Origin: a virus
DNA length: 22,746 bases
Strand: one strand, 5' to 3'
Virus record (IMG/VR): IMGVR_UViG_3300025636_000041
Span: 1-22,746 of that record
Part shown: piece after piece, positions 1,453 to 16,581 of the stretch
Layout of the letters: the number at the start of each line of letters is the position of its first letter
How positions within the stretch are numbered: position 1 is the first letter of the stretch
The notes under the pieces: model-generated
What the model was told of the DNA's origin: nothing
Databases searched by the model: none
Seen by the model: only the letters and a program-made list of their open reading frames with translations
Program-made: the position numbers and the translations under genes

Positions 1453-3783
1453 TTATAATTGTACTATTATTGGATTCTGTTGTAAAACACTATTCTTCCC
1501 TCCTCTTATTACCGAAGTTCCACCACCTACTCCCTTTGGCGAAGATACCTTTGCAGTAATGTAACTCGGAGAAGAAGAAACAATAACTGGGTTCGATGGT
1601 TCTATTTCTGTTGTTTCTAATACTTTGTATAATTCCACTTTTGTAGTTTCGTATCCGTTTGCATTGTAATCTGTGATTAAATTCTTTCGGTATAACACTC
1701 CGTTAATATTAACCAACGTACTCAAATCTCCAATAGTGCTTTCGTCTAAATCAAAATAAGCACTTAGTATTTTTCCATCTATTGAAGTTTGCTCAACAAT
1801 GCTTATTCTATTGTACTTTGTGAATAGGTTATTATTCTTGTAATTTGTGTAGTCGTAATAAGTAAATACTGGCTTACCAAAATTCAAGTCAAAAGTAGGA
1901 TTCTTGATATCCTCATAAGCGTGATGTGCTTGTGGATAACTCGTATACGAATGTAAACCAAAAGAGTACCTTAAACTCCAGCTACCAGATATTGCTTTCA
2001 ATCCGTTGTTAAAAAATATTCTTGGCTTACCCTTGTACGGTTCAAAAGTTTGTCCTCCATCCTTTGATGCTTTTATCGTAGGTATAACGTAGTTTCTATT
2101 TACTGCAGTTGCAATAGGTATAGTTTGAGCAAAAGGCAAAACGAAGTCAATTTCATTCTTGTTGTACTCGTTGTCGCTTTCGTAGGTAAAATCTCCATAC
2201 TGCTCATTCGTCTTTTCGAAGTAGTCATTTCGATAATAGTCCTTATCTTCTGCAAATTTGAAGTTATACTTCTTTGCTGAATCGTTTACACTTGGCTTAA
2301 TGTTAATTGCTTTTGAATAGTCTAATAACTCACTCCAGTTCTCCTCTCCACTATAATAGTTTTGTAATGGTTCAATGTTTACTACTCCATCCTCGTTCGG
2401 TTCGCTTACATAAAGGTTAAACATATTTATAACTCCCTTTACAAAGTCGCTACATTTTAAATTCGGTATAAACCTATTTAGAGTAATAATATCATTTTCA
2501 AGATAAAATCCGTTTACAGAAGTTAGATTGAGATTGAAAGCATTTTGCAAATCAAAGCTTAAATCTATTGTAAATGGATTCGCATCTCTTAATATTCCTT
2601 GAATAAAGAAGTCAACGTAAATTTCATCCCCAGCAACCAAGTTTAGTTGAGTATTTGTAGTTTGGTTATACGTTGCAGAAGTAGAAAAGAAGAAAGGAGA
2701 TGCACTCGAAATTACTCTACCATTCTTTACAACTCTACTTACTACTCTTAAATTACCCGATGCAGTTCCACTCGTTACTGAGTAACCAAGTAATGAATTG
2801 TAATTTAGTTCTAAGTTATAACTCCCACTCTTTTGTATTGTAATTCTATTCGCAGTAGAATTGTATTGAGAATACCCATCGTTTCTTAATAAAGTTACAG
2901 TAAATTGAGAAAGGTAATATCTCTTTGAGACATAAGCAGAATAACCATAAGAGGGAGTACCAAATGCGTTAATAGTATCAACAACACCTCCTGGAGTATC
3001 AAAGTCATACTCTACTTGTCTCGCACTCGCGTCAGCTGGAGGAGTAGATTCTTTCTTTCCTCCTCCAAAACCCCAAGTCAAAGCCTTAAACATATTTGTA
3101 TCGAAAAAATCCGATTCAATAGAAACTCCAACATGATCAAAGCACTTCTCAAAAGTTTCTTTTACATAAACGTAAGGAACGAAGTTCTCGATATTTATCG
3201 TATTCACTCCACTACCATACTCGAAGTCCATAACTGGGTACCAATATCCAAATCCATCAGGTTTACCACTTGTATAATTAGAAGTAGCAACCGGAACTCC
3301 GGCACTATTTTTTTTAATTACACTTGTATCCCAACTATCTTCGATATTAAACTTTGTTAAGTCGTGGTCGTACTCACTCCAATCTAACTCGTTTACATTT
3401 AAGTCAGCCATCCCCTTAATCATATTGATAAAATCAGCGAATAAAACTATTTCAAAATAATAGTTTCCTTTGTCTATCTCAATATTAAGCAACCGAACCA
3501 AACCATTAAATATCTCTATTCCGTTACGGATGTACCTTGCTCTTACCTTTATGTTTGGGTTGAAGTCAAACCCCAAAGCATCTCCAACATCTGTCAAAGA
3601 CAAATTGTAAGCACCCGAAAATATTCTTTTGTTATTCTGCGTTCCACTTACTTTTATAGTCTTGGATACACTTCTTTTCCTATTCTCTGGATTCTTAAAA
3701 TCTCCAATAGAGTAAGAAATAGGAAATGGAATCTCACTATCCAAATCCACAATTTGGTTATCTATGTAAAGTATGTTAGACAT
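1453..3783 (-). CDS. baseplate / tail-tip structural protein
   Basis: A 776-residue protein, the second longest here. The N-terminal part has a layout seen in large structural proteins of Bacteroidetes phages: 'NRKRSVSKTIKVSGTQNNK' near residues 34-52, then 'FNPNIKVRARYIRNGIEIF' and 'GLVRLLNIEIDKGNYYFEI'. That pattern (small attachment domain, then a beta-domain carrying an 'nG..if.G...l' segment) resembles tail-hub or Tal-like proteins. The rest is rich in Tyr, Asn, Ser and aromatics, typical of beta-structured virion proteins. It overlaps the 3' end of the preceding structural gene by 8 bases and precedes the fibre genes. I infer a tail-tip or baseplate role. No peptidase or lysozyme motif was recognised. 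Confidence 0.55.
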   Translation of the reverse strand: MSNILYIDNQIVDLDSEIPFPISYSIGDFKNPENRKRSVSKTIKVSGTQNNKRIFSGAYNLSLTDVGDALGFDFNPNIKVRARYIRNGIEIFNGLVRLLNIEIDKGNYYFEIVLFADFINMIKGMADLNVNELDWSEYDHDLTKFNIEDSWDTSVIKKNSAGVPVATSNYTSGKPDGFGYWYPVMDFEYGSGVNTINIENFVPYVYVKETFEKCFDHVGVSIESDFFDTNMFKALTWGFGGGKKESTPPADASARQVEYDFDTPGGVVDTINAFGTPSYGYSAYVSKRYYLSQFTVTLLRNDGYSQYNSTANRITIQKSGSYNLELNYNSLLGYSVTSGTASGNLRVVSRVVKNGRVISSASPFFFSTSATYNQTTNTQLNLVAGDEIYVDFFIQGILRDANPFTIDLSFDLQNAFNLNLTSVNGFYLENDIITLNRFIPNLKCSDFVKGVINMFNLYVSEPNEDGVVNIEPLQNYYSGEENWSELLDYSKAINIKPSVNDSAKKYNFKFAEDKDYYRNDYFEKTNEQYGDFTYESDNEYNKNEIDFVLPFAQTIPIATAVNRNYVIPTIKASKDGGQTFEPYKGKPRIFFNNGLKAISGSWSLRYSFGLHSYTSYPQAHHAYEDIKNPTFDLNFGKPVFTYYDYTNYKNNNLFTKYNRISIVEQTSIDGKILSAYFDLDESTIGDLSTLVNINGVLYRKNLITDYNANGYETTKVELYKVLETTEIEPSNPVIVSSSPSYITAKVSSPKGVGGGTSVIRGGKNSVLQQNPIIVQL

Positions 3784-5725: not shown

Positions 5726-6210
5726 AAAAAACCAGTTAAATCTAAGTATTGCGATATGTTCATATTGCGTTTAAACACTTCTGCTCTTTCCTTTAGTGGG
5801 TTAATAATATTTGAATGCTCATCTGTTTCAGCATATCCCATTCCTTTCTCAATATACGCAAAAGCTGGGAGCAACTCTGGCACTTTCTCAAAGTCTGCAT
5901 TTCCTGAATCAATGTACCAACCAGCTGGAAGCTTGAAGAAATCTTGTTGCAATTCGTATTCTTTGCCCTCATACTCCAAGTAGATAGGTACTTCTTTTGG
6001 CTTGTATTGGTTCAGCACTTCAATTATTATATTGAAAGCTTTGTTAATATCCGAAACAACCACCTTACTAATATCTTTCTTTGTGTATAATTTAACAAGT
6101 TTTATCTTGTTGACAATACTCCAATCTTCCTTGACTTCATTTATAAAGTGGAAGCAATCAATGTAGGTTAAGTCTAAATCTTTTATTCTCTTTTTAATCT
6201 TTAATTCCAT
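5575..6210 (-). CDS. tail-assembly-chaperone-like protein, zero-frame product
   Basis: The zero frame encodes 211 residues and begins on the last base of terL. Residues 1-160 look like an ordinary soluble protein, with conserved-looking stretches KLPAGWYIDSGNADF (93-107), LLPAFAYIEKGMGYAETDEH (113-132) and NPLKERAEVFKRNMNISQYL (137-156). After residue 161 the frame crosses a run of nine T (minus strand) and composition changes: the last ~50 residues are almost all K, Q, R, L and S (TTQKQKNKKLSSGRRLF), which looks like out-of-frame translation. The -1 frame gives a much better protein (separate entry). Lying ahead of tail genes, it may be a G/GT-type tail chaperone made by programmed frameshifting. 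An unknown gene with a missing base is the alternative. Confidence 0.5.
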   Translation of the reverse strand: MELKIKKRIKDLDLTYIDCFHFINEVKEDWSIVNKIKLVKLYTKKDISKVVVSDINKAFNIIIEVLNQYKPKEVPIYLEYEGKEYELQQDFFKLPAGWYIDSGNADFEKVPELLPAFAYIEKGMGYAETDEHSNIINPLKERAEVFKRNMNISQYLDLTGFFLLKHKQYKLSYILTQATTQKQKNKKLSSGRRLFTLWLKNLKQLGRRLLK

Positions 6211-14370: not shown

Positions 14371-14401
14371 TAAAATTACACGTTTCGTTGAGAATTTCAA
14401 A
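14371..14401 (-). promoter_or_regulatory. candidate promoter for primase-helicase operon
   Basis: On the minus strand TTTG (14401-14398) is followed after exactly 19 bases by TAATTTTA (14378-14371), matching the Bacteroidetes -33/-7 pattern TTTG-N19-TAnnTTTG except at the final base. The ATG lies 27 bases downstream. The -33 element falls in the T-run of the preceding terminator, so stop and restart signals are fused. Confidence 0.55.
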
Positions 14402-14448
14402 AAAACAACCCCCCCTATTTAAAACCAATAAAATATTTTTGGGGGGGT
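14399..14448 (-). terminator. intrinsic terminator with pure C7/G7 stem
   Basis: The minus-strand transcript would read ACCCCCCC, a 25-base AU-rich loop, GGGGGGGU, then UG and a run of seven U. Plus-strand C tract: 14409-14415; G tract: 14441-14447; A run: 14399-14405. It lies just after the putative ssDNA-binding protein gene and before the primase promoter, so it would uncouple the two. A matching element lies at 20177-20225. Confidence 0.75.
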
Positions 14449-14468
14449 ATGTTTTTTACCATTTTATG

Positions 14469-15116
14469 TTAAAATGGCACTTCATCCGTTTCAATATTAT
14501 CCTCTGAAACTCTTCCGAAATATGTGTCCATATAGCCTTGAAGTTTACTTGCTGATTCGTTTGCAAGTTTGTCTTCTGCTTTAGTTATATTTCCACCTAT
14601 TTGAAAATCTGGAGTAGAAAACTTTACTGCTCCTTTCTTTCCATCTTTTGCTTCGTTAATCTCAACCCATTGATTGTCTAACAAATGATTGTTGTCATTG
14701 TAGAAATCAGAGTAAGCCTTAACTCCACTTCCTTTTAATTGAAAGTTCACAAGTTCTCCATCCGGTAACATTCCATAAACGGAACGATGATAAACACCTC
14801 CAGCATTTTTTACTTTTTCTTTAATCTCTTTGTAAAGTCCTTTTCCAATTTCTCCACCTTTGAATGCTTTAACAGAAAGTTCTTCCTTTCCTATTGCATA
14901 AACTTCATTGGAGTAGATTCCAGATTCTGTCGCATCATTCCAACCCTTTACGGTATGGTAGTGTTCCAGGAATAGAAATTTGATTGGTAATTCCACAAGA
15001 ACATTTTTGCCTTGTTCTTTGTCATAATACGAAAAAGCCTTGTCATTACTTTTCCAATTTAAATACTTCGTTACCGGAGAAGTAGATCCGTTCGTTGGTC
15101 TGTTTAATCTTGCCAT
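14469..15116 (-). CDS. putative single-stranded DNA-binding protein
   Basis: A 215-residue protein. The strongest clue is the C-terminus, VSEDNIETDEVPF: an acidic tail ending in a hydrophobic-Pro-Phe tripeptide, like the DDDIPF tail by which bacterial SSBs recruit partner proteins. The N-terminal ~170 residues are beta-rich with many aromatics and basic residues (TKYLNWKSNDKAFSYYDKE, KFLFLEHYHTVKGWN, VYHRSVYGMLPDGELVNFQL), fitting an OB-like ssDNA-binding domain. It sits between a RecE-like exonuclease and the primase-helicase, has its own promoter, and its transcript would start with a pseudoknot. I did not recognise the named family, so the call is inference from tail, composition and context. 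Confidence 0.65.
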   Translation of the reverse strand: MARLNRPTNGSTSPVTKYLNWKSNDKAFSYYDKEQGKNVLVELPIKFLFLEHYHTVKGWNDATESGIYSNEVYAIGKEELSVKAFKGGEIGKGLYKEIKEKVKNAGGVYHRSVYGMLPDGELVNFQLKGSGVKAYSDFYNDNNHLLDNQWVEINEAKDGKKGAVKFSTPDFQIGGNITKAEDKLANESASKLQGYMDTYFGRVSEDNIETDEVPF

Positions 15117-15135
15117 CGTTTTTTGTTTTTATCTC

Positions 15136-15167
15136 GCTTACAAATTATGTAGGTGTAAGCATCCTAC
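15136..15167 (-). promoter_or_regulatory. H-type RNA pseudoknot in the leader of the putative ssb gene
   Basis: On the transcript, 5' to 3': GUAGG (15167-15163), AU, GCUUACA (15160-15154), CCUAC (15153-15149), AUAAUU, UGUAAGC (15142-15136). GUAGG pairs with CCUAC (5 bp) and GCUUACA with UGUAAGC (7 bp); the strands interleave, giving a pseudoknot with a 2-nt first loop, no inter-stem loop and a 6-nt A/U last loop. An A-rich unstructured stretch follows up to the ATG at 15116. An alternative is a plain 7-bp hairpin with CUC/GAG below a bulge. Confidence 0.65.
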
Positions 15168-15172
15168 GAGTA

Positions 15173-15203
15173 TAAATATAAGATTTTGTTTCATTAAAAC
15201 AAA
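15173..15203 (-). promoter_or_regulatory. promoter for the putative ssb gene
   Basis: TTTG (15203-15200), 19 bases, TATATTTA (15180-15173) on the minus strand, one base off the Bacteroidetes consensus. The -33 element lies in the last codons of the exonuclease gene. The expected transcription start, a few bases past 15173, coincides with the first bases of the pseudoknot. Confidence 0.6.
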
Positions 15204-16170: not shown

Positions 16171-16581
16171 TTAAGATTGATATTTCAAAATAATTTCGTT
16201 CCCAATTTTCTCTCTTGTGTTTGCAGTGTAATTCACAACCTTATGCTTCAGGATTGTGTTAATCTTATCCACATCGTTTTTGATAACCTTATCAACATCG
16301 TAAAATCCTTTGATTTGCTTGATTGAATAAATCATTGTTGCATGATCTTTGTGGATAAATTTACCAATATTTGTCAGACTTTCATTTGTGTATTCCTTGC
16401 AGAAATATGAGTATAATTGCCGAGCATAAACAAAATCTCTCAACCTTGTTTTACGGTTCTTAACTTCGTCAAAGTCTATTGCCAACTCTCTGCAAATTAC
16501 TTTCAAAATTTCTTCTTTGGTTAGCTTTCCAATTGGCATAAACTTCTTAAATGTGCCAACATAAATATATGGGTGTATCAT
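16171..16581 (-). CDS. stand-alone DnaA domain IV-like protein
   Basis: A 136-residue protein that lacks any ATPase region but carries the DnaA C-terminal DNA-binding domain: LTKEEILKVICRELAIDFDE (20-39), KNRKTRLRDFVYARQLYSYF (41-60), then ESLTNIGKFIHKDHATMIYS (67-86). 'R..fvyaRql..yf...ltn.sL..IGk.i.KdHaT.iys' corresponds to the DnaA helix-turn-helix and signature loop (DHAT/S) that contact the DnaA box. It starts within the stop of the upstream gene (ATGA). It could bind DnaA boxes in phage or host DNA, marking a phage origin or competing with host DnaA. Two perfect DnaA boxes lie inside this very gene. Confidence 0.82.
   Translation of the reverse strand: MIHPYIYVGTFKKFMPIGKLTKEEILKVICRELAIDFDEVKNRKTRLRDFVYARQLYSYFCKEYTNESLTNIGKFIHKDHATMIYSIKQIKGFYDVDKVIKNDVDKINTILKHKVVNYTANTREKIGNEIILKYQS
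16265..16273 (+). promoter_or_regulatory. perfect DnaA box TTATCCACA
   Basis: An exact 9-base DnaA-box consensus on the plus strand, inside the DnaA-domain-IV gene. A second perfect box in the opposite orientation lies 76 bases further on. It may be a real binding site or an accident of coding sequence (it encodes part of DVDKI). Confidence 0.4.
16350..16358 (-). promoter_or_regulatory. perfect DnaA box TTATCCACA (inverted)
   Basis: An exact DnaA box on the minus strand (TGTGGATAA on the plus strand), facing the one at 16265-16273. It encodes part of FIHK in the DnaA signature region, so coding constraint could explain it. Confidence 0.4.

Follow-up and report, generated by a model that had tools for sequence, protein, structure and literature searches.

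Autoregulation of a single-stranded DNA-binding protein (SSB) via a pseudoknot in the leader of its mRNA is a textbook case, described mainly for T4-like phages. The locus analyzed here raises the question of whether a phage of Bacteroidetes encoding an SSB-like protein has a leader of the same kind. The window comprised the entire 22.7-kb virus record IMGVR_UViG_3300025636_000041 (positions 1 to 22,746), in which the gene and its surroundings include the following features.

15,173 to 15,203, minus strand: Bacteroidetes-type promoter-like TTTG-N19-TATATTTA, by direct reading (TTTG at 15,203 to 15,200, TATATTTA at 15,180 to 15,173)
15,163 to 15,167, minus strand: 5' arm of stem 1 (S1), GTAGG; partner at 15,153 to 15,149; inner four pairs covary (E<0.05)
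15,161 to 15,162, minus strand: loop 1 (L1), AT, by direct reading
15,154 to 15,160, minus strand: 5' arm of stem 2 (S2), GCTTACA; partner at 15,142 to 15,136; 5 of 7 pairs covary (E<0.05)
15,149 to 15,153, minus strand: 3' arm of S1 (S1'), CCTAC, abutting S2 without a loop 2 (L2), by reading and covariation
15,143 to 15,148, minus strand: loop 3 (L3), ATAATT, 6 nt, by direct reading
15,136 to 15,142, minus strand: 3' arm of S2 (S2'), TGTAAGC, by covariation and structure-blind alignment
15,117 to 15,135, minus strand: A-rich single-stranded spacer of 19 nt, GAGATAAAAACAAAAAACG, with TAAA; proposed site of ribosome binding and protein spreading
14,469 to 15,116, minus strand: gene of the SSB-like protein (215 aa, phrog_6706, tail ETDEVPF), ATG at 15,116
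14,399 to 14,457, minus strand: terminator-like inverted repeat with T tract, ~12 nt past the stop codon of the gene

Read directly on the minus strand, positions 15,167 to 15,136 form an H-type pseudoknot in which S1 has 5 bp, L1 2 nt, S2 7 bp, and L3 6 nt, while L2 is missing; these are exactly the loop lengths (2, 0, and 6 nt) given in the original prediction. The A-rich stretch ahead of the ATG, which had been described as unstructured, has a mean unpaired probability of 0.90 in the window. At the other end of the gene, the inverted repeat consists of arms of 16 to 17 nt with 25 to 26 nt between them and a T tract at its end; it contains a homopolymer C7/G7, and a loop of ~25 nt is unusual for a terminator. 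Its fold is no better than those of shuffled sequences (z -1.3), and a simple scan for terminators with loops of 3 to 8 nt found none.

Conservation and covariation of the leader pseudoknot

Relatives of the locus were collected from IMG/VR scans (80 loci) and from GTDB genomes (six loci, which sit in metagenome-assembled genomes of Flavobacteriaceae and other Bacteroidetes). The knot precedes the homologous gene in 76 of the 82 readable leaders and is represented by 40 distinct sequences; the six leaders without it belong to L006 and to five distant homologues. With the mycobacteriophages as the root of the protein tree, the knot occurs throughout one large clade and is absent in the basal L080 and L081, as well as in L076, L077, and L079. 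No leader knot was detected before those mycobacteriophage homologues that were checked, either, so the protein evidently can do without the knot in places. In L006, which lies inside the window's own subclade, the knot is broken: the 3' arm of S2 (at ~2,950 to 3,000) reads CTGAGGC where pairing would need CCTCAGC. This loss resembles a 6-nt micro-inversion and might reflect either a mutation or an assembly error.

The descriptor score of the window leader was matched by none of its 40 dinucleotide shuffles, and in the non-redundant set (n=45) 39 leaders scored at least 24, compared to 1.7% of dinucleotide shuffles. A separate scan from a divergent member, for which the descriptor had been fixed beforehand, provided a held-out set of 60 additional leaders, 18 of them non-redundant; all 18 fit the descriptor, as opposed to 0 of 900 shuffles.

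For the analysis of covariation, the elements were aligned on fixed-length stems, the tree was built from the proteins, and the changes were assigned by parsimony. On that tree, 81 double changes kept the pairing, 14 changes were one-sided, and 12 broke the pair. Compared to a phylogenetic null, in which the same substitutions were re-placed on the same branches, significant covariation (E<0.05) was obtained for 9 of the 11 pairs; 98.9% of the cells pair, versus 54% under the null. Because this first alignment had been fitted to the structure, the check was repeated with a sequence-only MAFFT alignment in the G-INS-i mode (the default mode split the S1' arm), with the left ends set by the descriptor. 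Both stems again came out in register, and 11 of the 12 pairs were retained in 36 to 40 of the 40 rows; the outermost S1 pair, retained in 22 of the 40, is optional. The expectation that close relatives would keep both stems through compensatory changes was thus strongly borne out by the 81 double changes and the complete fit of the held-out leaders. Wobbles in the stems are represented by G-U in 38 cells and by A-C in none; the descriptor itself favors G-U, but in the sequence-only alignment the 11 core pairs are likewise free of A-C. Such a pattern indicates that the strand that folds is the mRNA-sense one.

The dimensions of the knot vary little. L1 measures 2 nt in 38 of the 40 distinct knots (with the letters AA, AT, or AC in 34), L2 is zero in 38, and S2 has 7 bp throughout. 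L3 is 4 to 5 nt long in 19 of the 22 knots whose S1 has 4 bp, and 5 to 7 nt long in all 17 whose S1 has 5 bp. These constraints on loop length point to a single stacked knot rather than two independent hairpins. By contrast, the stem letters drift freely: there are 17 different 5'-arm sequences for S1 and 27 for S2, and the only near-invariant letters are the A of L1 and the first G of S2, which fits recognition of a shape and not a metabolite pocket. The knot is almost certainly a real RNA structure.

The SSB-like protein and its neighborhood

The 215-aa product has a single match, phrog_6706, a family of unknown function. A Pfam profile search assigned it to no family, PF00436 included, Pfam and NCBIfam searches with 31 homologues returned nothing usable and no gp32-family match, and gp32 was absent among the PDB fold matches listed for the protein. 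The original prediction spoke of an unrelated SSB, and indeed none of the tests run placed the protein in the gp32 family. An AlphaFold2 model built with the 31 homologues (pLDDT 84.6) displays the order beta-beta-beta-alpha-beta-beta, which is compatible with an OB fold. In a Foldseek search of the PDB, the only significant match was the recombination directionality factor (RDF) gp3 of phage phiC31 (9teh_I; E 8e-4), with a low TM-score of ~0.37 and 11% identity; the OB-fold ssDNA binders hSSB1, POT1, and Teb1 appeared as weak matches (E 0.13 to 0.26). The viral library also lists an RDF of Microbacterium phage Armstrong, and phage SSB-like proteins and gp3-type RDFs possibly share a fold. The integrase/RDF reading of the protein was rejected, as a search of 27 related records (which may be fragments) detected no serine integrase. 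A sequence profile search of the PDB was likewise set aside, having produced no meaningful relative (the phosphorylase 4l22 at 0.007).

The SSB-like tail noted in the prediction, DEVPF in the window, proved to be a family feature: 73 of the 81 complete relatives have an acidic C-terminal tail ending in F, with a mean net charge of -5.3 over the last 12 residues. Neighboring genes encode an exonuclease VIII-like PD-(D/E)XK protein and a BT4734/PriCT primase-helicase-like protein, so that the neighborhood, judging from the predicted products, is one of replication and recombination. No PF00436 SSB was detected in the 27 related records, which may be fragments. The mycobacteriophage homologues (52 records) are annotated as hypothetical proteins; in phages Gaia and Courthouse, the genes beside the homologue are those of a DNA-binding protein and of a polymerase/primase. 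Elsewhere in the window, the 136-aa product of positions 16,171 to 16,581 carries the C-terminal helix-turn-helix domain of DnaA (PF08299, E 1.7e-18) and is possibly an origin-binding protein of the phage. Taken together, fold, tail, and context make the 215-aa protein the likely SSB of this phage.

Position of the knot relative to genes and promoters

The distance from the knot to the ATG is 15 to 21 nt (mean 18.6 +/- 1.4), and the spacer has a mean unpaired probability of 0.79 over the 40 leaders. TAAA is found in 90% of the leaders versus 45% ahead of other ORFs, a contrast that is inflated by relatedness; TTAAA is found in 57.5% of the leaders. In a scan of the window and about 20 related records on both strands (~1.42 Mb) for a knot followed by TAAA and ATG, 17 of the 18 sites fell at the SSB-like gene, and shuffles gave 0.5 sites.

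A second knot, with the anatomy of the first, is present in L090, the same phage record as L024, on the minus strand at positions 6,155 to 6,103, before an ORF of 76 aa. It consists of ATCCGCC, AT, GAGTAGT, GGCGGAT, TTGGA, and ACTACTC, followed by ACTTTAAA, with the ATG coming after 18 nt. The 76-aa ORF has no PHROG match, and a DNA-methylase-like ORF is located farther on.

The prediction also placed the transcription start at the knot. The promoter-like TTTG-N19-TATATTTA is indeed there in the window, but a transcript starting at the knot is not a general feature of the relatives: a TAnnTTT[G/A] motif, similar to the -7 element, is found within 25 nt upstream of the knot in only 10 of the 40. 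In 15 of 38 cases, the stop codon of the upstream ORF is located at most 10 nt before the knot or inside it, and the upstream neighbor itself is variable, with a DUF3799 exonuclease-like gene detected in only 6 of the 27 records. Since the knot stays while the gene upstream, the promoter, and the gap to the preceding stop codon all vary, it travels with the SSB-like gene and not with a transcription start. In L013 and L017, the upstream ORF terminates within the pseudoknot, so that its translation should unfold the knot, and the two genes could be coupled. In L007 and L073, a tRNA upstream of the knot was suspected by eye, and ARAGORN found none there. Just downstream of the SSB-like gene of L057, positions 2,604 to 2,673 give a sub-threshold Rfam match to the Bacteroidetes FopS small RNA (29.8 bits against a gathering threshold of 56, E 1.3), which may be due to chance.

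Possible modes of control

The leader combines a covarying knot, its place before one gene, a fixed spacing, and an open spacer. It is very likely that the knot controls the SSB-like gene, and this control is, on balance, probably autogenous translational repression that resembles that by gp32 but arose convergently. The likeness is in the layout. In the gene 32 operator of T4 and RB69, a pseudoknot precedes an A/U-rich stretch that is less structured and contains UUAAA/UAAA, and the start codon comes after it; gp32 nucleates on the knot and from there covers the start region by spreading, and the stem letters can drift while the topology is kept (PMC535899, PMC3014915). Both systems have the knot 5' of such a start region, an SSB-type gene, and a replication/recombination context. 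The predicted gene 32-like order of parts holds, but not the dimensions: the 15- to 21-nt spacer is about half that of T4, and the knot ends ~18 nt from the start, as compared to >40 nt in T4 and RB69, which leaves less room for cooperative spreading. The present system also differs in its Bacteroidetes hosts, in the putative nature of its repression, and in its protein, which is unrelated to gp32 by the tests run, so that the likeness to the gene 32 operator would be convergent. Even among T4-like phages, the gene 32 leader pseudoknot is not conserved, being absent in RB49 (PMC3014915). The element may well work like the gp32 operator.

The nearest described motif close to SSB genes is STAXI (RF01728), a candidate pseudoknot RNA associated with genes for ssDNA-binding proteins (PMC2864571). 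It differs from the leader knot in several ways: STAXI consists of two to three knots in tandem, often with UUCG tetraloops, and occurs in Enterobacteriales near several kinds of genes, whereas here a single knot with no Rfam match lies 15 to 21 nt before one gene. A permissive Rfam search (E<=5) that included STAXI, preQ1, and SAM-II yielded no match at the leader in the window or at the loci of nine relatives. A search of the accessible literature, which covered few subscription journals, found no description of the element.

In Bacteroidetes, the 30S subunit binds at an open, A-rich start region and not through Shine-Dalgarno pairing. As an RNA operator acting in cis, the leader would fold its interleaved 5-bp and 7-bp stems into one stacked H-type knot within the mRNA, ending ~18 nt ahead of the AUG. 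The SSB-like protein, once in excess over the available ssDNA, could bind this knot and spread 3' across the short A/U-rich spacer (UAAA/UUUAAA), covering the start region and thereby blocking 30S binding. A build-up of ssDNA during replication would cause the protein to leave the mRNA, and translation would resume. The choice of the SSB-like protein as the ligand, and of repression as the effect, is suggested by analogy with T4 gp32. The exclusive association of the knot with one gene weighs against autorepression in particular, as it fits any gene-specific control, feedback or other. Further points against this reading are the knot-less homologues, the broken S2 of L006, and a best PDB fold match that is an RDF and not a proven SSB.

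Phage SSB is needed in quantity, and the main rival explanation, which is clearly less likely, though plausible, is a ligand-free cis element that ensures high early SSB output, acting as a translation enhancer, as a standby structure that faces the 30S subunit on its platform side, or as protection of the mRNA against decay. It would account for the very constant spacing to the AUG and for the promoter-like motif near the knot in 10 of the 40 leaders; however, such an element would not be expected to precede one gene only, and no others, in ~1.4 Mb. A pure 5'-end cap is further contradicted by the many knots that are internal to an apparent operon, or even overlap the end of the upstream ORF.

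The knot might also be an operator for another protein, recognized by a ribosomal or RNA-binding protein of the host or by a different phage regulator, which would time the synthesis of SSB. The second site in L090, before an unrelated 76-aa ORF, agrees with this possibility, but it is rather unlikely, given that a host factor would be expected to preserve more letters than the two near-invariant ones. In the case of rpsO (S15), the knot overlaps the ribosome binding site, whereas the present knot is followed by an open start region. That operator belongs to the known r-protein pseudoknot operators and represents the same type of mechanism as proposed here, autogenous translational control via an mRNA pseudoknot (cited in PMC3014915).

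The remaining explanations are far less probable. Each stem can form alone (mean -2.5 kcal/mol for S1 and -6.9 kcal/mol for S2), as would be needed for mutually exclusive hairpins that act as a switch, but the 2-nt L1, the missing L2, the 7-bp S2, and the tendency of L3 to lengthen with S1 are what a stacked knot requires, making a switch quite improbable. Slightly less credible still is a small-molecule riboswitch: those of the preQ1-I and SAM-II types are H-type knots of similar size and topology, but neither matched in Rfam, there are almost no conserved letters in the loops or stems, and the gene is not metabolic. A DNA-level element, such as an operator palindrome or an origin hairpin, could use S2 as a 7-bp inverted repeat within a replication gene region, yet is the least credible of all, as both stems drift freely with compensation, the mRNA strand has G-U wobbles without any A-C, and the knot keeps a fixed distance from the ATG.

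Gene 32-like autorepression thus remains the preferred reading. The leader knot represents a new RNA family outside Rfam and provides a lead to what the phage protein family phrog_6706 does. With many covarying knots at an unrelated SSB-like gene, it becomes testable whether SSBs repeatedly evolve such operators, which features of shape they read when the letters drift, and by what means hosts lacking Shine-Dalgarno signals gate translation. The chances are about even that the Bacteroidetes phages have made a second, independent invention of gene 32-type control, which would involve an SSB unrelated to gp32 and mRNAs devoid of Shine-Dalgarno sequences, extend over a large clade in which the letters of the knot have been almost fully turned over, and occasionally include a second gene.
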